64,000 bases of DNA from Methanothermobacter sp. MT-2 (GCA_003584625.1 AP017647.1:249501-313500); one strand, 5' to 3'. Positions 7,268-44,976 are shown, counted from the first letter of the stretch. Notes: a model not told the origin generated them from the sequence alone. Numbers and translations: made by a program.

Positions 7268-8035
7268 ATGAAAATTAAAGTTTACTCACTAGACGGAGAA
7301 CCAATAGACGAGATAAAATTGCCCGAAATATTCACAGAAGAATACAGACCAGACCTCATAAAAAGGGCGGTTATATCAGCGCAAACAGCAAGAATACAAC
7401 CATGGGGCTCAGATCCCATGGCAGGTAAAAGAACATCAGCAGAATCATACGGCGCCGGCCGAGGAATAGCCATGGTACCCCGTATAAAAGGAGGTCAAAG
7501 AGCAGCATTCGTACCCCAAGCCAGAGGGGGTAGGAGAGCCCACCCACCAAAACCATACAAAAACCACCATGAAAGGATAAACGCCAAAGAAAGGCGCCTA
7601 GCCATCAGATCAGCCATAGCAGCCACAAAAGACAAAGAACTAATCAAAGAAAGAGGACACATCATAGACAACCTACCAGAAATCCCACTAATAATTGAAG
7701 ATGAACTCACCAAGATAAAAAAGACAAAAAAGACAAGAAAAATATTCAAAAAACTAGGAATAATAGATGATATCATAAGAGCAAAGGAAGGCAAGAAGAT
7801 AAGAGCCGGGAAAGGAAAAATGAGAGGGAGAAAATACAAAACACCAAAAGGGCCCCTCATAGTAATCCACGAAGACAAAGGCATAAGCCTAGGCGCAAGA
7901 AACCACCCAGGCCTAGACATAGTCAGAGTAGAAAACCTAAACGCTGAACTATTAGCACCCGGCACACACCCAGGAAGACTAACAATATTCACAAAATCAG
8001 CCATAGAAAAACTTGACAAACTATTCAAACCCTAA
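7268..8035 (+). CDS. rpl4: ribosomal protein uL4 (L4)
   Basis: 255 aa from the ATG at 7268 ([11 protein letters not shown]). A GTG at 7259 is in frame but has no room for a ribosome binding site after the L3 stop, so the ATG is preferred. The basic exit-tunnel loop, [20 protein letters not shown], is intact at about residues 70-90. As in archaea and eukaryotes it carries a C-terminal extension compared with bacterial L4. Assembly and exit-tunnel protein of the 50S subunit. The coding strand is very A/C-rich, as in all the ribosomal genes here. Confidence 0.95.
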
Positions 8036-8047
8036 AGGAGAGATAGC

Positions 8048-8308
8048 ATGGACCCATACAAGATCATAATAAAACCACATGTAACAGAAAAAACTATGAA
8101 TCTAATAGACCAAAATAATGAATTAACATTCATAGTCAACAGAAAAAGTAACAAACCAGAGATAAAATCAGCCTTCGAAGAACTCTTCGCAGTGAAAGTT
8201 GAAAGAATTAACACCCAGATAACCCACAACGGAGAAAAACTAGCATATATAAAATTGGCGAAAGAACACAACGCAGAAGACATAGCAGTCAAACTAGGCG
8301 TATTCTAA
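8048..8308 (+). CDS. rpl23: ribosomal protein uL23 (L23)
   Basis: 86 aa, the normal compact archaeal length. The N-terminal IIIKPHVTEKTMNLI and the C-terminal VKVERINTQITHNGEKLAYI are the conserved L23 motifs. It lies at the exit of the ribosomal tunnel and forms part of the docking site for the signal recognition particle and the SecY translocon, whose gene is later in the same cluster. AGGAG sits 5 bases upstream of the ATG. Confidence 0.96.
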   Translation: MDPYKIIIKPHVTEKTMNLIDQNNELTFIVNRKSNKPEIKSAFEELFAVKVERINTQITHNGEKLAYIKLAKEHNAEDIAVKLGVF

Positions 8309-8327
8309 ACCCGAGGAGGGGGAAATT

Positions 8328-9038
8328 ATGGGTAAAAGATTAAGATCACAAAGGCTTGGGAGGGGAACACCAACATACAGGAGCGCCTCCCACCGATTCA
8401 AAGCAAAAATAAGATACAAACCCCAAAATGAAAACCTAAAGGGTAAAGTAGTTGACATAATACACGACCCTGGTAGAACAGCGCCAATCGCCAAGATAGA
8501 ATATGAAAATGGCGACGAAGACTTCATACTAGCACCAGAAAGTATCAGAGTAGGGGAAGAAATATACAATGGAACCCCAGCACCCATAAAACCAGGTAAC
8601 ATCCTACCACTCAAAGAAATCCCAGAAGGAACACCCATCTACAACATAGAAAACCAACCAGGAGATGGTGGGAAACTCGTCAGATCATCAGGCACCTACG
8701 CCTCACTCATCACACACGACATCGACAAAGTAGTTATCGAACTACCATCAGGAGAACTCAAAGCCCTAGACCCAAAATGCAAGGCCACAATTGGCGTTGT
8801 AGCAGGGGGAGGGCGTAGAGAGAAACCCTTCCTCAAAGCAGGTAAACATTATCATGCTCTCAAAGCCAAGGGTAAAAAATCTGTAGTTGTAAGAGGCGTT
8901 GCAATGAACGCCGTAGACCACCCACATGGTGGAGGTAACAGACAACATCCAGGCAGGCCCACAACAGTCTCAAAACACGCGCCACCTGGAAGAAAAGTTG
9001 GTTCAATCGCAGCTAAAAGAACCGGGAAAAGAAGATAA
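8328..9038 (+). CDS. rpl2: ribosomal protein uL2 (L2)
   Basis: 236 aa archaeal L2 with the OB-fold and SH3-like domains. The near-universal VRGVAMNAVDHPHGGG motif carries the histidine implicated in peptidyl transferase activity. The N-terminus GKRLRSQRLGRGTPTYR is archaeal. A GGAGGGGG ribosome binding site precedes the ATG. It is a primary 23S rRNA binder that is required for subunit association. Confidence 0.97.
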   Translation: MGKRLRSQRLGRGTPTYRSASHRFKAKIRYKPQNENLKGKVVDIIHDPGRTAPIAKIEYENGDEDFILAPESIRVGEEIYNGTPAPIKPGNILPLKEIPEGTPIYNIENQPGDGGKLVRSSGTYASLITHDIDKVVIELPSGELKALDPKCKATIGVVAGGGRREKPFLKAGKHYHALKAKGKKSVVVRGVAMNAVDHPHGGGNRQHPGRPTTVSKHAPPGRKVGSIAAKRTGKRR

Positions 9039-37556: not shown

Positions 37557-38444
37557 TTATTTTCTTTCGATTTTTATTCTTATAGGTGCCTCCACACCCC
37601 TCCTGCGCAACATCCAAATGACTAATCCTATTATGATGAGGATTATAAGCCATACTGGTATAACTACGACAGTATCAGTGGTATTTATTGTCTTGATTGC
37701 CTGGAACCTACCATATTTTATTGTTGTATCTACCTTGTACAAACCAAGGTCTGTCCATCCAGGAGCCCACCTTTCAACGAGAGTATAATTATCTTCAGGG
37801 TATACCACGCCTTCTATAGGAATACTATGACTGGTCAAGCCTCTAATATCTATTGAACCTGTCATGTTTGCCTGAACGGTACCATTATTCTTGAGCTCAT
37901 AGACAAACTCTCCTGGAATAAAACTCAGAAGTATAATAGGTGCCTTATGGTCAATGAGTTGTAGGGATTCTATGATAGGCCCTGGGAGTCCCACTCTTAT
38001 GGGTACTACAAGTTCGACTCCATGGGTGATTTGTGTTCCACCTGTAACATTCTCCACCACGGGAAGACCCCTTATAACAAGTGCGCCTACAGCATCTGAA
38101 TAATTTATCTTAGATGGTGCTTTTACAGTGAATGTTATCTTCCTGGATTCTCCAGGTTTTAAAGTGAATGTTGTGTTACCATTGATTGTTATCCAATTTG
38201 CAATACCTTTATCAGAATATACGAGGTGTATGCTGTCCATAAGAAGCCTCTTTTTTTCAACGGTAACATTGACAGTTTCATTACCGATATTTTTCACTGT
38301 AACTTCACCGGTTACTGTCCCACCTGGTTTGAGGTCGTAGCGGAATTCCGCCGGCGAAGCCCATAGGCCAGTTGCAATAATTGGATATAGTGACCCTAGG
38401 AGGAATATGAACATTAAAGTTGCCACAAAAATCTTGAACTTCAT
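37557..38444 (-). CDS. DUF916-like secreted protein with C-terminal membrane anchor
   Basis: 295 aa. Signal peptide (residues 1-25, hydrophobic FVATLMFIFLLGSLYPII), then two beta-sandwich-like regions: residues 30-140 with DLKPGGTVTGEVTVKNIGNETVNVTVEK and TLKPGESRKITFTVKAP, and residues 140-245 with many N-x-S/T sequons. A single membrane helix (VVVIPVWLIILIIIGLVIW) and a basic tail RRRG end it. This plan matches the DUF916/DUF3324 proteins of Gram-positive WxL surface systems, which keep a C-terminal anchor and are co-encoded with small secreted partners, as here. GGGGGGAGAG lies upstream of the ATG. Function inferred only. Confidence 0.7.
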   Translation of the reverse strand: MKFKIFVATLMFIFLLGSLYPIIATGLWASPAEFRYDLKPGGTVTGEVTVKNIGNETVNVTVEKKRLLMDSIHLVYSDKGIANWITINGNTTFTLKPGESRKITFTVKAPSKINYSDAVGALVIRGLPVVENVTGGTQITHGVELVVPIRVGLPGPIIESLQLIDHKAPIILLSFIPGEFVYELKNNGTVQANMTGSIDIRGLTSHSIPIEGVVYPEDNYTLVERWAPGWTDLGLYKVDTTIKYGRFQAIKTINTTDTVVVIPVWLIILIIIGLVIWMLRRRGVEAPIRIKIERK

Positions 38445-38502
38445 CTGAGACTCTCCCCCCTACAGTTGACTAAATTTGGTCATTATAATAAATAAGGTAG
38501 AA

Positions 38503-38511
38503 TAAAAAAAA
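38503..38511 (-). terminator. T-run terminator after the 175-aa surface gene
   Basis: On the minus strand a run of eight or more T follows the gene ending at 38544, within the 99-base gap before the next gene, which has its own TATA-like TTATTTATTATAATG. Archaeal terminators need only such U tracts. Confidence 0.5.
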
Positions 38512-38543
38512 GTTTTTGCTAAAAAATGCGAATTGGATCAGAT

Positions 38544-39071
38544 CTATGGTTGTACGTTGTGTTTCACGGCAGTGTAGATCAAGGTTATAATATAGGTTCC
38601 ATCTTCTGTAAATGATGGTATTGTAAGCTGTTGCTGTGTGGTCCATGTAAATGGTGTTCCTGAACCCTGACTAGCCTTAGGCATGTTATCATAGATCTTT
38701 AAAAGACTTGTTGAAAGTTGTTGGAAGCTTCCGGTAACATTACTCCTTATCTTATAATTACCAGCTATTGGTATTGTGTCCTCTGTGTTTGGAGTGGTTG
38801 GTCTAAAGTCTGTGTCATTTGTCTGGACATAAAGGTCTATTTTAACATTGCCAGCGTTCTTTATATTGTAACTTGGGCTCTCGTAAGTACCACCTGCACT
38901 CTGATTACCAAAGTTCACTGGAGTGTCAAGCTCTATTGATATGGCCTCTGGTACTGATACGGTTACAGTCTGGTTTGCCGTGGCTGCTGATGATGTGTCA
39001 TATGCTCCTAATGCGACTGCGAACATCAAAGCCAACAGTAACGCTATTAATCCTCCGATTTTTTCCTTCAT
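38544..39071 (-). CDS. small secreted Ig-like surface protein (WxL-like partner)
   Basis: 175 aa. Clear signal peptide (IGGLIALLLALMFAVALGAYD, cleavage near residue 30). The mature part is beta-rich: VTVSVPEAISIELDTPVNFGN, then SYNIKNAGNVKIDLYVQTND, and it ends LTIPSFTEDGTYIITLIYTAV. It shares its plan with the proteins at 39319 and 43740 and resembles the small secreted partners of DUF916 proteins, although the literal WxL motif is missing (FTWTT instead). TAGGTGATATA precedes the ATG. Probably extracellular, associated with the wall. Confidence 0.7.
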   Translation of the reverse strand: MKEKIGGLIALLLALMFAVALGAYDTSSAATANQTVTVSVPEAISIELDTPVNFGNQSAGGTYESPSYNIKNAGNVKIDLYVQTNDTDFRPTTPNTEDTIPIAGNYKIRSNVTGSFQQLSTSLLKIYDNMPKASQGSGTPFTWTTQQQLTIPSFTEDGTYIITLIYTAVKHNVQP

Positions 39072-39186
39072 ATTATATCACCTAACGACAATCCCAGTAT
39101 AGTCTTAATTATAAAACGATTTTTTCATAGGGTATATTTAAAGTTTTTGGTTTATGTGAAGATTGAGACCAAATATAAAAAAAAGT

Positions 39187-39204
39187 TTGTGACTATTGTC
39201 ACAA
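39187..39204. promoter_or_regulatory. perfect palindrome TTGTGAC-N4-GTCACAA
   Basis: Seven-base arms TTGTGAC and GTCACAA separated by TATT. It lies about 115 bases upstream of the 175-aa surface gene start (minus strand) and downstream of the TATA-like element TTTAAATATA of that gene in genome order. It could be an operator or a small hairpin ending a transcript. No third copy was seen. Confidence 0.4.
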
Positions 39205-39318
39205 TAATTTGGCGGATCCACAAAAAAATTGAATGGTCATAGAGATCCTAAAAAAAGAGGAAATACTCAACCCTCCCCCAAAGGACGTCCAAAAACCCCC
39301 CCAAAAAATAAGGAATTT

Positions 39319-39819
39319 TCATGTTGCAGTATAGATTATGGTCACAGAATATGTTCCAGGATCGGCATAAAGCGGTACACTAATATAAAAACTCATGTCC
39401 ACTCTCTCAATACCAGTTCCCAAATAACGTAATATACTCTGATTTGATGTTGTAAATGATGTTTTAGTAACATTTTGAGTGCTAGACTTAAGGTTATCAA
39501 TGGAGATTATTGAACCATCTTCACTTACTAGATCGCCATTTGCCCTGACATAAAGGTCACCTGCCCCATTATGATCTATTATTACATTCACGGCATTCGG
39601 ATAACTTCTTTCTGTGCCATCAGGGGGTACAGTCCCAAGATTTAAAATAGATGGGGTTACACTAACAGATACGTGCCCTGACAATGGCTGTACCGTGATA
39701 TTACCCATATTCGTCGAGATGTTCTTTATAGACTGATTTGTCTGGTTTTCTGCTGCAACTGCAAATACGCCCAACAATAACACACATAATACCATGACTG
39801 AAAGAATCCTTAAATCCAA
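39319..39819 (-). CDS. small secreted Ig-like surface protein, paralogue of 43740 gene
   Basis: 166 aa. Start TTG (MDLRILSVMVLCVLLLGVFAVAAE) behind AGGGGGTT; the first 23 residues are a signal peptide. The mature chain has VSVTPSILNLGTVPPDGTERSY, VRANGDLVSEDGS and ends VPLYADPGTYSVTIIYTAT. It is a paralogue of the 167-aa protein at 43740: the signal-peptide codons and the last 39 bases are nearly or fully identical while the centre differs. Upstream sequence on its strand is the insertion-element remnant at 39843-40085, which carries a strong TATA box (ACTTTATATAAG near 40005-40018). Confidence 0.72.
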   Translation of the reverse strand: MDLRILSVMVLCVLLLGVFAVAAENQTNQSIKNISTNMGNITVQPLSGHVSVSVTPSILNLGTVPPDGTERSYPNAVNVIIDHNGAGDLYVRANGDLVSEDGSIISIDNLKSSTQNVTKTSFTTSNQSILRYLGTGIERVDMSFYISVPLYADPGTYSVTIIYTAT

Positions 39820-39842
39820 TTTAACCCCCTTCTATAAGCACC

Positions 39843-40085
39843 TATCATGAACCACCCTATCCTTAGCAACTAAGAGCCTCCTTACTCCAATAAAGAGCTT
39901 ACCACTTGTCTTAACAGTCTAAGGGCTCATAAAGGACAGTCCTCACTCTACACAAATTCAAGGTTGCCATCTATCCCTGTCTATAATGTTCTGTTTGAAT
40001 ACTTATATAAAGTTATTACCGGCTTTTTCTCTTGTTGTATTCCTTCCCTTTCGGAAGGGAGGCTTAATAACAATGCTAAGTTAAA
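39843..40085 (-). mobile_element. IS200/IS605 (TnpB-type) element remnant A
   Basis: Read on the minus strand. The left end TTTAACT-N12-TAA, a C-rich/G-rich hairpin and ATACAACAAG (40031-40085) align with the same parts of remnants B and C. The right end has an AGGCTC...hairpin (CTTAG/CTAAG) followed by GGTTCATGATA at 39843-39853, like the hairpin-TTCAC right ends of this family. Only about 243 bases remain and no transposase frame is intact. A TATA box lies inside. Family assignment is inference from end structure. Confidence 0.55.
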
Positions 40086-41010
40086 CTTTGCGGTTTAACA
40101 TATCAAATATCAAATTTAGAAAAAAAATTCATAAAACTAGCTATGATGCACACTTGAGGATACAATTAACCCCAAGCTCTGTAGAAATCATAGGGAAGTC
40201 ACCTAGGTATTAACCAAATAACTTGAAAAGTGATCTAGAGTAATCCCCCCCAAAGGTAACCATAGTGATAACAAGTTAATAATGTTTACAAGTGTGGCGT
40301 TTAAAGAAGGCTTTACCAGCCTATAAATCGAAGCATAAATATACCCAACACCACGCCTTGTTGCGTTTTAAGACACATTTAGGACCTAGGATGACGAATT
40401 CACATCCGTTTAGTAATGACATCTTTACTTAAAATGCTCGGTTTAGAGAGTGTTCCACACTACTGGAGAATTTCTTCAAACGCATCAGCCACTTCCTGAA
40501 CATGATGCTCGATTTTAAAGCGCATTTATTCAACATTAAGAATTCTTGGGCAGCTATTGATGGAACAAGGCCGCTCCAGTAGTCATGCAGGTCTCTGTTA
40601 TGCCCAATGGGAGGGTTTAGAATGCAAAAAAATGGGGGAAAGTTGCACCAGGAAATTATGATAGCAAAATGGATATTCAAGAGTAGGTTATAATCAGCCA
40701 AAGGTCGTCAAATGGGGGGGTGTCAAGGCAATTTTCAAGGACACGTAAAAAAAGGAAAAATTGGCCAATAATAGTTTTTCATTTTAGATGTTAGTTGGGG
40801 ATACTCCCCTGTTATAAAATGTGTGGGGGAATTGGAGGAAGTTGTCAAAGAAAAAAATATCGGTTTTTGCAGTGTTAAATACTATTTCAACAACCCAATA
40901 CAACCTTCATGAAATTAGTGAGAATTTTCAATGATTACAAAAATACCCACTAAAAAAAAGCTAAAAAAAACATTTACCCACAATAAAAAGATGGTTCATG
41001 CAAATCACCC
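40086..41010. other. long intergenic stretch without a supported gene
   Basis: About 0.9 kb. The plus strand has a stop-free stretch near 40435-40575 (a translated piece ends KNSWAAIDGTRPLQ) without a start or ribosome binding site, and the opposite strand has a 90-codon frame across 40429-40701; neither resembles a known family to me. It may be decayed mobile DNA given remnant A next to it. AT-rich, with several A runs near 40970-41030. Confidence 0.4.
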
Positions 41011-41030
41011 CAAAAAAAATAAAATAAAAT
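41011..41030 (-). terminator. T-rich terminator of the beta-helix gene
   Basis: On the minus strand, directly after the stop of the gene ending at 41041, three T tracts (TTTT, TTTT, TTTTTTTT) follow in 20 bases, fitting an archaeal U-tract terminator. Confidence 0.5.
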
Positions 41031-41040
41031 TTTTAGGATA

Positions 41041-42831
41041 TTATCTCGCCACAGTAAACGTTGATGAGTAATCTGTTGCTAACATGCTTCCTATGCTGTT
41101 TTTTATGGCATTCTTGGGTATTGTAACTGTGAATTTCACACCAGGGTTCCAGTTGTATATTGCTTTTATATAGAGTTTGTTTCCACTGATGGTCTTGTTA
41201 ATGGTTTTTACTGTTCCGTTGGCCATTTTGACTGTTATGTTCGCATAGCTTGGACCTTTGAGGATGTTCTGGTTGAATGTTATGATGATGGTCTTGTTAG
41301 ATGGCACGCTAACAGCACCATTTGCCGGGTCTATAGAATTTATTTTTGGTATGATGAGTGGTAGGTTGTCTTGTCCTCCTGTGAAGGTGTATGGTGTGTC
41401 GCCGAAACCGTCGCCATCAAGGTCTTTTCCTGTGTAGTCGCTCCAGTAGTTTCCTCCTGTCGGTTTTGCCAAATTGAAGAGATTATCCATACCAAAATAC
41501 ACTATTGCCTGCACCCCGTTGCCTATAAAACTATTTCTATAAACTATGTTGTTATCACCGTATAAGAATATTCCACGCCCTTTGTTATTGGTTATGTTGT
41601 TGTTGGATATTGTATTATTATTTGAAGAATCGTAGAGGTAGATTCCATCCTCCCCGTTGTTGGTTATGTTGTTGTTGGATATTGTATTATTTGAAGAATC
41701 GTAGAGGTAGATTCCATAATAATACATGTTGTTGATGGTGTTGTTGGATATTGTATTATTTGAAGAATAGCAGATGTAGATTCCATCATTTCCGCTATTG
41801 GTTATGTTGTTGTTGGAAATCAGATTATTATTTGAAGAATACCGGAGGTCGATTCCATCATAATCGTTGTTGGTTATGTTGTTGTTGTAGATTTTGTTAT
41901 ATTCTGAATCTGAGAGGTCTATTCCAAGTCCGTTGTTGGTTATGTTGTTGTTGGATATTGTATTATTTGAAGAATACCAGAGGTCTATTCCATCATCTCC
42001 GTTGTTGGTTATTTTGTTGTTGGAAATCATATTATTATTTGAAGAATAGAAGAGGTAGATTCCATAATACGTGTTGTTGGTTATGTTGTTGTTGGAAAGT
42101 ATATTATTTGAAGAATACCAGAGGTCTATTCCAAGTCCGTTGTTGGTTATGTTGTTGTTGGAAAGTATATTATTTGAAGAATAGCAGATGTAGATTCCAT
42201 CATACTTGTTGTTGGTTATTTTGTTGTTGTAGATTGTATTATTTGAAGAATTGTTGAGGTAGATTCCATAATACGTGTTGTTGGTTATGTTGTTGTTGGA
42301 AAGTATATTATTTGAAGAATACCAGAGGTCTATTCCAAGTCCGTTGTTGGTTATGTTGTTGTTGGATATTGTATTATTTGAAGAATAGTCGAGGTAGATT
42401 CCATAATACGTGTTGTTGGTTATGTTGTTGTTTGTTATTTTGCATTGGTTTGCTTGTATGTGTATTCCAGTTTGGCTGTTTTTTATTGTGAATCCTGTTA
42501 TTGTTGTGTTGTTGGCGGTTATTGTTATTGTGGGTTGGTTTGGGTTTTTTGGTTGTATTGTTGGTGTTCCTTGTGCTTTTAGTGTTATGGTTTTGTTTAT
42601 TTTGATGTTTTCTGTGTATGTTCCTGTTTCTGCTATTATTGTGTCGCCGGGTTGGGCATCGTTTATTGCAGCTTGTATTGTTGTGTAGTGTGTTCCTGTT
42701 CGGTTGTTCCATGGGTCGGGAAGTTTTGGGGTGTCTTGTATGGTGTTGTTTGCTGCTGTCACGCCAGTAGAAAGTGCTGCTGCCACTAAGAAAAAAAGCA
42801 AGGCAACTAAAACAAAATTCAAAGGCTTCAT
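41041..42831 (-). CDS. secreted NosD-like parallel beta-helix adhesin
   Basis: 596 aa. Signal peptide (PLNFVLVALLFFLVAAALSTG). Residues 45-110 have the pectate-lyase/NosD entry YTTIQAAINDAQPGDTIIAE and ITLKAQGTPTIQPKNP. Residues 110-440 hold about 14 coils built on the unit NNTISNNNITNNGxGIDLWYSS, then the NosD ending FIGNGVQAIVY and GGNYWSDYTGKDLDGDGFGDTPYTF. The last 100 residues are a Big_5-type Ig domain (IDPANGAVSVPSNKTIIITFNQNI). Very rich in N-x-S/T sites. Such adhesin-like proteins are numerous in Methanobacteriales. A consensus TATA box and GGGGTGG support the start. Confidence 0.88.
   Translation of the reverse strand: MKPLNFVLVALLFFLVAAALSTGVTAANNTIQDTPKLPDPWNNRTGTHYTTIQAAINDAQPGDTIIAETGTYTENIKINKTITLKAQGTPTIQPKNPNQPTITITANNTTITGFTIKNSQTGIHIQANQCKITNNNITNNTYYGIYLDYSSNNTISNNNITNNGLGIDLWYSSNNILSNNNITNNTYYGIYLNNSSNNTIYNNKITNNKYDGIYICYSSNNILSNNNITNNGLGIDLWYSSNNILSNNNITNNTYYGIYLFYSSNNNMISNNKITNNGDDGIDLWYSSNNTISNNNITNNGLGIDLSDSEYNKIYNNNITNNDYDGIDLRYSSNNNLISNNNITNSGNDGIYICYSSNNTISNNTINNMYYYGIYLYDSSNNTISNNNITNNGEDGIYLYDSSNNNTISNNNITNNKGRGIFLYGDNNIVYRNSFIGNGVQAIVYFGMDNLFNLAKPTGGNYWSDYTGKDLDGDGFGDTPYTFTGGQDNLPLIIPKINSIDPANGAVSVPSNKTIIITFNQNILKGPSYANITVKMANGTVKTINKTISGNKLYIKAIYNWNPGVKFTVTIPKNAIKNSIGSMLATDYSSTFTVAR
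41580..42420 (-). repeat. in-gene tandem repeats of the beta-helix protein
   Basis: About a dozen imperfect units of roughly 66-72 bases (22-24 codons) recur, with the common core TTATTTGAAGAAT followed by a Tyr/Leu-Ser-Ser codon group and a GGTTATGTTGTTGTTGGA core (as read on the plus strand). Some pairs of units are nearly identical over tens of bases, suggesting recent unit duplication. Confidence 0.85.
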
Positions 42832-42884
42832 TCAAACCACCCCATTCTCAACTAAATACAGTAGTATCTTTACAAGAAAAATAA

Positions 42885-42897
42885 TATATAAAGTTTA
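42885..42897 (-). promoter_or_regulatory. consensus promoter of the beta-helix gene
   Basis: Minus strand reads AAACTTTATATA, the full methanogen BRE-TATA consensus. The predicted start site near 42863 leaves a leader of about 30 bases with GGGGTGG before the ATG at 42831. Confidence 0.75.
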
Positions 42898-43739
42898 ACA
42901 TCATGAATAGAAAAAACATAAAATGTGGGGGGGCAACCTCCAGCCAACTAAAAAAAATCACCAACCCAAAAAAAACAAGGATTAAAAGCCAGAAAAATTC
43001 TCAAAACACCCTCTAAAAATTTCAAAAATATCACATCAAAACCCTAAAATTATTAAGCCCACATACACCCTAGCTACAAAAATCTTAAACATTTCAATTT
43101 CCATAGGCAAGCCCAACCCAAATTTACATAAACAGTCTGTAAACAACCAACATACTAATCTTATTTTTTAATCATCAACAGCCCCCCCACACACACCATT
43201 ATATAAACAGTTTGCAAACAATCAACAGTTATCACAAAATACCCCTTTCAATCATCCAAGAGCTCAACACCCACCCAATAATAAACAAGGAAAAAAACCA
43301 GTATAACTCAGTAAACAAACCTTAAACATGAAAAAAAACACATCACAACATTAACTAAAAACAGCCAGCATGACACCACACCCCAAAAAATAATATAGAA
43401 AGGCAAAACACCGGCTTGCAACCTCCCCCCATCCAGCAACACACTATAACTTCAAAAAACTTGGCGGAAACACTCATATTTGCACTGAAGAAAGTTTTTC
43501 AACGATAAAAAATTACTGCAAAAAATAACCGGCAAAAACAAGGCAAAAAAATGTCTGCTACAAAATATACTGCCACTTAAAACACTTATCCACATAAGAC
43601 ATGATTTTCTGCAAAGCCTATTCCAAGATTTTTCCCACCTTTTTAGAAGTACATTTTCATACTATCCATTAGGTGTGCTTGACTTTTTCTTGATAAAAAA
43701 CCTTACAGGGGGGAGAGTTAACCACAATAAAAATTTTTT
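42898..43739. other. intergenic stretch, A/C-rich plus strand, no gene
   Basis: About 840 bases with many stops in all frames. The plus strand is strongly A- and C-rich. Two 25-base near-identical motifs lie at 43128 and 43203 (separate entry). I see no tRNA, insertion-element end or convincing small ORF. Confidence 0.5.
43128..43227. repeat. two 25-bp direct repeats, 75 bp apart
   Basis: 43128-43152 and 43203-43227 both read ATAAACAGT-Y-TG-Y-AAACAA, continuing Y-CAACA; 22 of 25 bases match and all three differences are transitions. The second copy is preceded by TTAT, forming a TATA-like TTATATAAA. They may be regulator binding sites or remains of a duplicated promoter. Confidence 0.6.
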
Positions 43740-44243
43740 TCATGTTGCAGTATAGATTATGGTCACAGAATATGTTCCGGGGTCAGTGTAAGATGGTACA
43801 GTAATATAGAAATTCATAGGGACCGTAAGAGTTCCCAAAAGGCCGCTATAGTTTGCTATAATATAATTTGTTGTTGTGAATGATCTCTTGGGGACATTTG
43901 ATGTGCTGAATTTAAGATTTGATAAGGGGATTGAACCATTGGCACCTATAAGATCGCCGGTTGCCCTTACATAAAGATGATCATCAAACGCCAAAATGTA
44001 TGTGACAGTTACGGTTGCAGCGTTTTGGTAGCTTCTTTCTATGCCATCAGGGGGTACCGTTCCAAGATTTAAAGTAGATGGGGTTACACTAACAGATGAC
44101 CACACCGAAAGTGGTTGTACTGTGGTGTTATTTGTAGTATTGGACTTGTTTGAAGTTTGGTTTGTCTCGTTTTCTGCTGCAACTGCAAATACGCCCAACA
44201 ATAACACACATAATACCATGACTGAAAGAATCCTTGAATCCAA
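43740..44243 (-). CDS. small secreted Ig-like surface protein, paralogue of 39319 gene
   Basis: 167 aa. Start TTG (MDSRILSVMVLCVLLLGVFAVAAE) with GGGGGGTT upstream; signal peptide of about 23 residues. Mature part: a low-complexity Asn/Thr stretch with sequons, then VSVTPSTLNLGTVPPDGIERSYQNA, LYVRATGDLIGANGSIPLSNL and ending VPSYTDPGTYSVTIIYTAT. Paralogue of the protein at 39319. It starts 25 bases after the stop of the radical SAM gene on the same strand, so the two may be co-transcribed. Confidence 0.72.
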   Translation of the reverse strand: MDSRILSVMVLCVLLLGVFAVAAENETNQTSNKSNTTNNTTVQPLSVWSSVSVTPSTLNLGTVPPDGIERSYQNAATVTVTYILAFDDHLYVRATGDLIGANGSIPLSNLKFSTSNVPKRSFTTTNYIIANYSGLLGTLTVPMNFYITVPSYTDPGTYSVTIIYTAT

Positions 44244-44268: not shown

Positions 44269-44976
44269 TTAGTGAACTTTTATTATTAAACTTTTTTGGA
44301 TGAGTATCTTTTTTCCTTTTCTATGCCTTCTAGATTCTAGTGATGTTGAAACATGTGATAAGTATTTTTTGCTGATATTCTTCGCGGCCTCTATTATGCC
44401 TTTTGATGGTCTTGGCATATTCAACCTGGAGGGTACATGGGCTATTATATGATATGGTAGATCCCATCTTCCAAGGAATTTTGCGATCTTCCCAATCTCA
44501 GATACTCCGATTATACCTGGTATGAGTACGGTTGAAATTTCCACCTTAAAATTAAGGTCTCCCTTGTTTTCTCCAAGATATTCTATGGCTTCAAGGACTC
44601 TCTTATTTGATTGAGAAGTGAGAATCTTATGTTTTTTATCATCCAAGGCCTTGAGGTTCACATGAACCTCGTTGACTTTCAATTTGTCTATTTTCTCAAG
44701 TAAGTATGAGCCGTTAGTGGATAATATACTATAGAAGTTTCTATCTAGGAGTTTTGTCAAATCTGGGAGATCATCTTGGAGTGTTGGTTCTCCGCCGGCT
44801 ATTATAATACTAGAGAGATTGTATACCCTTCCTATCTTGGAGAGAATATCATATAGGCCTTTTGTTGTAAGGCTTGTGCAATCTTGTGGTTTGAAAAAAC
44901 AATATTTACACTTGAAATTGCATCCGTATACGAGCAATGTTATCTTATCACTTACCGAAATATGGGAAATTCTCAT
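44269..44976 (-). CDS. radical SAM protein, pyruvate-formate-lyase-activase-like
   Basis: 235 aa single-domain radical SAM enzyme. The cluster motif is C19-x3-C23-x2-C26 in GCNFKCKYC; the SAM-binding GGEP sits in IIIAGGEPTLQ, and NGSYL and the later VLIPGIIGVSEIGKIAKFL fit the activase-like barrel. It has no C-terminal SPASM cluster. GAGGTCTT lies before the ATG. The substrate is unknown. Its downstream neighbour is a secreted surface protein and its divergent neighbour a phosphoesterase; neither reveals its role. Confidence 0.8.
   Translation of the reverse strand: MRISHISVSDKITLLVYGCNFKCKYCFFKPQDCTSLTTKGLYDILSKIGRVYNLSSIIIAGGEPTLQDDLPDLTKLLDRNFYSILSTNGSYLLEKIDKLKVNEVHVNLKALDDKKHKILTSQSNKRVLEAIEYLGENKGDLNFKVEISTVLIPGIIGVSEIGKIAKFLGRWDLPYHIIAHVPSRLNMPRPSKGIIEAAKNISKKYLSHVSTSLESRRHRKGKKILIQKSLIIKVH

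Follow-up and report, generated by a model that had tools for sequence, protein, structure and literature searches.

What does a membrane-anchored protein with two immunoglobulin (Ig)-like domains do beside small secreted proteins in an archaeon? The question is raised by positions 37,557 to 44,243 of a 64,000-nucleotide stretch of Methanothermobacter sp. MT-2 (AP017647.1:249501-313500; hereafter the window, to which all coordinates of open reading frames (ORFs), promoters and motifs refer). An initial annotation, made from the sequence alone, had proposed here an analogue of the bacterial WxL/DUF916 cell-surface systems, in which an anchored protein of 295 amino acids (aa), small secreted proteins of 175, 166 and 167 aa and a beta-helix adhesin would act on the pseudomurein wall. 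We find that the region is the locus of the Mth60 fimbriae, that domain 1 of the anchored protein is homologous to bacterial DUF916, and that the operon probably builds its fibre by donor-strand exchange.

The region is the Mth60 fimbria locus

The ORFs, the signal peptide, two beta-sandwiches, C-terminal helix and basic tail of the anchored protein, and the GTY-x4-IYTA motif of the small proteins were all found as first described. The motif lies at or near the C-terminus in all three small proteins, the 175-aa protein adding VKHNVQP. Fourteen of the 18 published mth58-61 primers (Fink 2023, PMC10370314) map within 4.2 kb at the homologous locus of M. thermautotrophicus ΔH, where the mth60 test primer pair falls inside the small-protein gene. 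The 175-aa protein is 61% identical to ΔH Mth60, and the gene order (radical S-adenosylmethionine (SAM) protein, Mth61-like protein, fimbrin, anchored protein) is identical in the window and in ΔH. Since the published primers map at this homologous locus, the window region is the Mth60 fimbria locus, orthologous to ΔH mth58-61, with the 175-aa protein as its Mth60 fimbrin and the 166- and 167-aa proteins as Mth61-like members. The Mth60 fimbriae themselves are a known system, among the few archaeal appendages that are not made by the type IV pilus machine.

In ΔH, for which fimbriae have been shown, deletion of mth58-61 abolishes them and lowers cell-cell connections; Mth60 is the major fimbrin, its transcript is in excess, and the recombinant protein self-assembles at 65 °C. 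The functions of mth58, mth59 and mth61 were described as largely unknown (PMC10370314). The window differs from ΔH in having the anchored gene as one intact ORF, and in its duplicated Mth61 gene with a beta-helix gene between the copies.

The fimbrin and anchored genes are paired across Methanobacteriales

Profiles of the anchored and small-protein families were used to survey 151 Methanobacteriales genomes. The anchored protein was present in 13 genomes from four genera, always with small proteins, and each of the 19 anchored genes was the next gene downstream of a fimbrin gene in the same orientation, with gaps of 27 to 210 bp (17 of the 19 pairs measured). A second, diverged cassette, whose anchored protein is 48% identical, shows the pairing too. 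The pairing is not due to chance. The recurrent co-occurrence to which the initial annotation had tied its case was thus found, as was, for DUF916, the family match described below.

Fimbrin paralogs of the MTH382/383 type (L075:4836-6023, L074:5023-5547) have no anchored partner adjoining. In ΔH these paralogs are followed by the gene of a 605-aa membrane protein, and their mature parts are largely near-identical.

Domain 1 of the anchored protein is homologous to bacterial DUF916

In the AlphaFold model of the anchored protein (mean predicted local distance difference test, pLDDT, 84), the signal peptide is followed by a DUF916-like domain 1 (residues ~27-156), an Ig-like domain 2 (~157-262), a transmembrane helix (264-281) and a basic tail. 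The domains were compared, profile to profile, with DUF916 and DUF3324 sets made of lactic-acid-bacterial and Bacillales plasmid proteins, signal peptides and transmembrane helices being removed. The bacterial set was gathered with a consensus-like DUF916 probe, and only database sequences found in this way entered the profiles. Domain 1 matched DUF916 with a probability of 96.2% (E-value 2e-9, score 57.9). Sixty column shuffles scored 19.3 at most, and the reversed control 11.3. Scores against PapD-type chaperones (six from E. coli K-12), archaeal CARDB and DUF11 were 15.4, 20.6 and 13.6, with probabilities of 6% or less. When mature domains were compared with the six K-12 chaperones, probabilities of 0.3-0.5% were obtained, and PapD_N was matched by one of 16 members of the anchored family (E 0.006). 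We conclude that domain 1 is homologous to bacterial DUF916, specifically, which extends the WxLIP family to Archaea.

Structural comparison pointed the same way. Among the PDB matches listed by Foldseek, the top template-modelling score (TM-score) was that of the E. faecium WxLIP 9i1y (0.57/0.62); the WxLIP-WxL complex 9i25 scored 0.54/0.62 with the model, and class 5 and archaic pilus chaperones (CfaA/CsuC) scored lower. Single-sequence Pfam matches (NPCBM_assoc, fn3_5, WxLIP_PGBD, CARDB) were set aside, all being below cut-off and non-discriminating: DUF916/WxLIP_PGBD scored 19.7, under the cut-off of 27.3, and 11 of 16 relatives of the anchored protein matched WxLIP_PGBD, with other Ig families scoring alike. 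The layout of DUF916/DUF3324 proteins, as first claimed, was therefore borne out for the DUF916 domain and for the WxLIP fold; for DUF3324 (PF11797) no match was obtained at the level of sequence.

The anchored protein resembles the WxLIP of Lactobacillales and Bacillales by its signal peptide, DUF916-homologous domain 1, second Ig-like domain, transmembrane helix and basic tail, and by the position of its gene directly downstream of that of a small secreted beta protein; in the bacterial plasmid pairs, a small WxL gene lies directly upstream of the WxLIP gene. It differs from them by its score under the Pfam cut-off, by lacking a detectable DUF3324 sequence match and the NQIDKxxxYFDLK motif (FRYDLKPG alone stands at the matching place), and by having a fimbrin as partner and an archaeon as host. 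With no WxL partner, no NQIDK motif and no DUF3324 sequence match, the system is not filed under WxL systems proper. With the PapD-type chaperones (FimC, CsuC, CfaA), the protein shares two Ig domains, a donor-strand pilin encoded alongside and TM-scores of ~0.4/0.5; unlike them, it is membrane-tethered rather than periplasmic, has no usher gene and shows no sequence homology at the profile level.

WxLIP proteins consist of DUF916, DUF3324 and a transmembrane helix, and their long DUF916 hairpin is predicted to complete the beta-sandwich of WxL (Hassan 2023, PMC10599100). In the AlphaFold model, domain 1 of the anchored protein has a hairpin in that place, made of strands 117-128 and 143-152 on either side of the loop of lowest confidence (132-135), and this hairpin may likewise serve as a donor.

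The closest named relative, Methanobacteriaceae archaeon 41_258, has an anchored protein of 91% identity. No relatives came out of a viral-contig scan or of plasmid tblastn searches with the anchored protein. The DUF916 model (PF06030) also gives signal in Thermotoga maritima, which is thermophilic and does not belong to the Gram-positive bacteria.

The small proteins are predicted to be donor-strand fibre subunits

The model of the 175-aa fimbrin (pLDDT 92) is all-beta in its mature part and forms an incomplete beta-sandwich. About three quarters of its best 50 PDB matches are donor-strand fibre subunits, the TasA fibre coming first; CS20, Csu, CupE, CfaB, FimA/FimG, PapA, cannulae and a TasA-like protein are among the matches. 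Mature Mth60 is reported to have a length of 143 aa (PMC4187195), which places its start in ΔH at about residue 31, just before QTVTVTV. In the window fimbrin, the mature start is at about residue 30 and is followed by an amphipathic segment, QTVTVSV (residues 34-40), that lies outside any sheet in the model. Over 30 family members, a hydrophobic residue stands at position 36 in 100%, at 38 in 93% and at 40 in 83%, with mostly polar residues at the alternating positions, and Q34 is found in 28 of 29. This N-terminal strand has the anatomy expected of a donor strand, and we regard it as a candidate for this role. In predicted fold and donor-strand candidate the fimbrin resembles TasA/TapA of Bacillus and the archaeal donor-strand fibres (bundling pili, threads, cannulae), from which it differs in that no sequence homology is detectable. 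We know of no membrane-anchored WxLIP-like partner for any of these. In the PDB, no sequence convincingly related to Mth60 was found. A phmmer match to the archaeal bundling protein X (9rhp), with an E-value of 0.93, was not recovered with the family profile at E<=1 and was not used.

As the initial annotation had noted, the literal WxL motif is lacking in the small proteins. Its further proposal, that they are WxL-type partners of the anchored protein, was not supported. None of the 30 fimbrin-family members had a Pfam WxL (PF13731) match at E<=1, and the mature fimbrin profile reached 1.8% against WxL, near background, 18-22 C-terminal columns (the last strand) being aligned. An earlier hhalign comparison that included signal peptides had inflated this value to 31.6%. 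One WxL column shuffle gave an outlier of 134.3, and for the WxL pair the reversed control and the mature-domain comparison were used instead.

These results bear on the idea that the small proteins and the anchored protein form a WxL-like surface complex which binds the pseudomurein wall. The DUF916 homology of domain 1 speaks for it, as does a gene order like that of WxL-WxLIP pairs. The small proteins, however, fail the WxL family model and profile and have the fold of fibre subunits; the locus is a fimbria operon, and the partner of the anchored protein is a filament subunit whose ortholog is a known fimbrin. Peptidoglycan binding by DUF916 itself rests on docking (PMC10599100). We consider a wall-binding role very unlikely.

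The same data address a classification of the Mth60 family as archaeal type IV pilins, with the anchored protein as an accessory. One census puts MTH60 in arCOG10348 as a major pilin (PMC4858521). The mature length of 143 aa (PMC4187195) implies, however, that ~30 residues are lost, and with them the whole hydrophobic segment that type IV pilins keep; by inspection and from this length, no class III signal with a retained hydrophobic helix was found. In addition, the mature Mth60-family model is all-beta and recombinant Mth60 self-assembles, so that a type IV pilin seems highly improbable.

mth58 and mth59 are two pieces of one gene

In each of the other 12 genomes, one uninterrupted frame of 278-310 aa encodes the anchored protein. 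The deposited ΔH counterpart crosses three frames (residues 2-180, 182-280 and 281-299), Mth59 holding domain 1 only and Mth58 domain 2. From these alignments, mth58 and mth59 are the two pieces of one frame-shifted gene. A further frame change lies near the end of ΔH mth61. Between ΔH and the nearest species, identity is 94-96% in the first two segments and 84% in the last 19 residues. Because identity stays high across most breaks, the latter are either sequencing errors or recent mutations. Over this part of ΔH, three frame changes occur within 2.3 kb (mth58/59 at L056:6332-7223, mth61 at 7976-8531), and mth61 is truncated.

A proposed membrane-tethered chaperone for an usher-less fimbria

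We propose that the region is an usher-less donor-strand fimbria operon with a membrane-tethered, WxLIP-type chaperone or platform, a reading that we hold to be likely. After secretion by the general pathway, the 175-aa fimbrin would polymerise by donor-strand exchange: the QTVTVSV strand of one subunit would complete the unfinished beta-sandwich of the one that follows. The C-terminal helix would hold the 295-aa protein in the cytoplasmic membrane, leaving both Ig-like domains on the outer side. Its DUF916-like domain would lend the long hairpin to newly secreted subunits and cap them, and the protein would feed or anchor the growing fibre, with no need of an outer-membrane usher. The Mth61-like proteins probably serve as alternative or minor subunits. 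This offers a testable assembly mechanism for the Mth60 fimbriae and would account for the construction of these unusual archaeal fibres.

Several observations weigh against this proposal. Domain 2 gave 1-2% against DUF3324 by profile, with a score at shuffle level; the region is recovered by fold, since the whole-ectodomain Foldseek match to WxLIP spans domain 2. The fimbrin reaches moderate TM-scores (0.3-0.5). In M. marburgensis, fimbrin paralogs persist although the anchored protein is absent. Finally, Mth60 alone assembled and Mth59 plus Mth60 failed to do so (PMC10370314); self-assembly in vitro means that a chaperone is not strictly required there. The Mth59 used in that assembly test would, from the frame analysis above, have been a truncated partner made of the N-terminal part only.

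The chief rival, quite possible in our opinion, sees in the anchored protein the fibre's base or nucleator, which gives the first donor strand and ties the fibre to the membrane, as TapA has been proposed to do for TasA fibres (PMC9674648). The transmembrane helix and basic tail fit such a role, and so does the intergenic sequence: a run of T6-T8 occurs soon after the fimbrin stop in 15 of the 15 fimbrin-to-anchor gaps listed, and implies that less anchor than fimbrin is made. These tracts are terminator-like and may allow read-through into the anchored gene, in keeping with the higher mth60 transcript reported. The fold of the anchored protein is, however, closest to WxLIP and PapD-type chaperones, not to TapA. 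Base and chaperone roles can coexist.

More tentatively, WxL-WxLIP of Gram-positive bacteria and Mth60-Mth59/58 of methanogens could be two branches of one old usher-less chaperone-subunit machine of single-membrane cells, in which a subunit with an incomplete beta-sandwich borrows a hairpin from a membrane-tethered Ig chaperone. If so, bacterial WxL proteins would be strand-complemented subunits, and the WxLIP helix would sit in the cell's own membrane rather than in a host membrane. No animal host is known for these thermophilic methanogens, which argues that the WxLIP helix anchors the protein in the membrane of its own cell. In the literature searched, we found no report of the WxLIP relation, the donor-strand anatomy, the mth58/mth59 fusion or the operator described next.

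A candidate operator of the fimbria regulon

The 1.52-Mb genome has a single copy of the palindrome TTGTGA-N6-TCACAA, which lies 115 bp upstream of the point where the fimbrin gene starts. Among 13 further genomes with fimbrin-family genes it occurs once in nine and is missing from four; overall, ten of the 14 genomes have a single copy, mostly at fimbrin promoters. By coordinates, six of the nine further copies immediately precede a fimbrin gene, including two at an MTH382/383-type paralog (G002, G150) and one at the second cassette (G003). Another, in M. marburgensis, occupies the former promoter position of mth60, a gene lost there, and two are elsewhere (G137 C1:28230, G139 C10:85328). We infer that the palindrome is a candidate operator of a fimbria regulon; being unique in most of these genomes, it would offer a way to study how surfaces induce fimbria expression, as they are known to do.

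The M. marburgensis-like genome (G143, L063:8461-8997) is without mth58-60 and retains mth61, the paralogs and the palindrome that belonged to the promoter of mth60. Its lack of mth60 and of the anchored gene agrees with the listing of MTH60 as specific to M. thermautotrophicus versus M. marburgensis (Kaster 2011, PMC3087415).

Other features of the locus

Table 1. Features of the fimbria locus, with positions in the window
Feature	Position	Strand	Basis
Membrane-anchored WxLIP-like protein, 295 aa, intact counterpart of Mth59+Mth58	37557..38444	-	structure, profiles, synteny
Proposed donor hairpin, domain 1, residues 117-152	37989..38096	-	secondary structure, pLDDT; function inferred
Poly-T tracts (T6, T8) past the fimbrin stop, terminator-like	38504..38526	-	sequence
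Major fimbrin of 175 aa with secretory signal, ortholog of Mth60	38544..39071	-	identity, synteny, model
TATA-box-like TTTAAATATA, fimbrin promoter	39133..39142	-	sequence; conserved upstream of relatives
Palindrome TTGTGA-CAATAG-TCACAA, proposed fimbria-regulon operator	39187..39204	.	genome-wide searches
Mth61-like fimbrin-family protein, copy 1, 166 aa, TTG start	39319..39819	-	
Beta-helix (NosD-type repeats) + Big_5 secreted protein	41041..42831	-	PF13229/PF05048
Mth61-like fimbrin-family protein, copy 2, 167 aa	43740..44243	-	
Radical SAM protein, conserved upstream neighbour	44269..44976	-	adjoins mth61 in ΔH too

Any role of the conserved radical SAM neighbour (Table 1) in the fimbriae is putative. 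The beta-helix adhesin, counted initially as part of the set, was rejected as a component: its gene is absent from the four related loci for which ORFs were listed (L001, L064, L068, L069), and the protein is probably outside the fimbria system.

The two Mth61-like copies are 66% identical in protein and 75% in DNA. Two AT-rich stretches of ~1 kb without conserved genes (39820-41040 and 42832-43739) border the beta-helix gene, and the block between the copies looks as if it had been inserted into a tandem pair.

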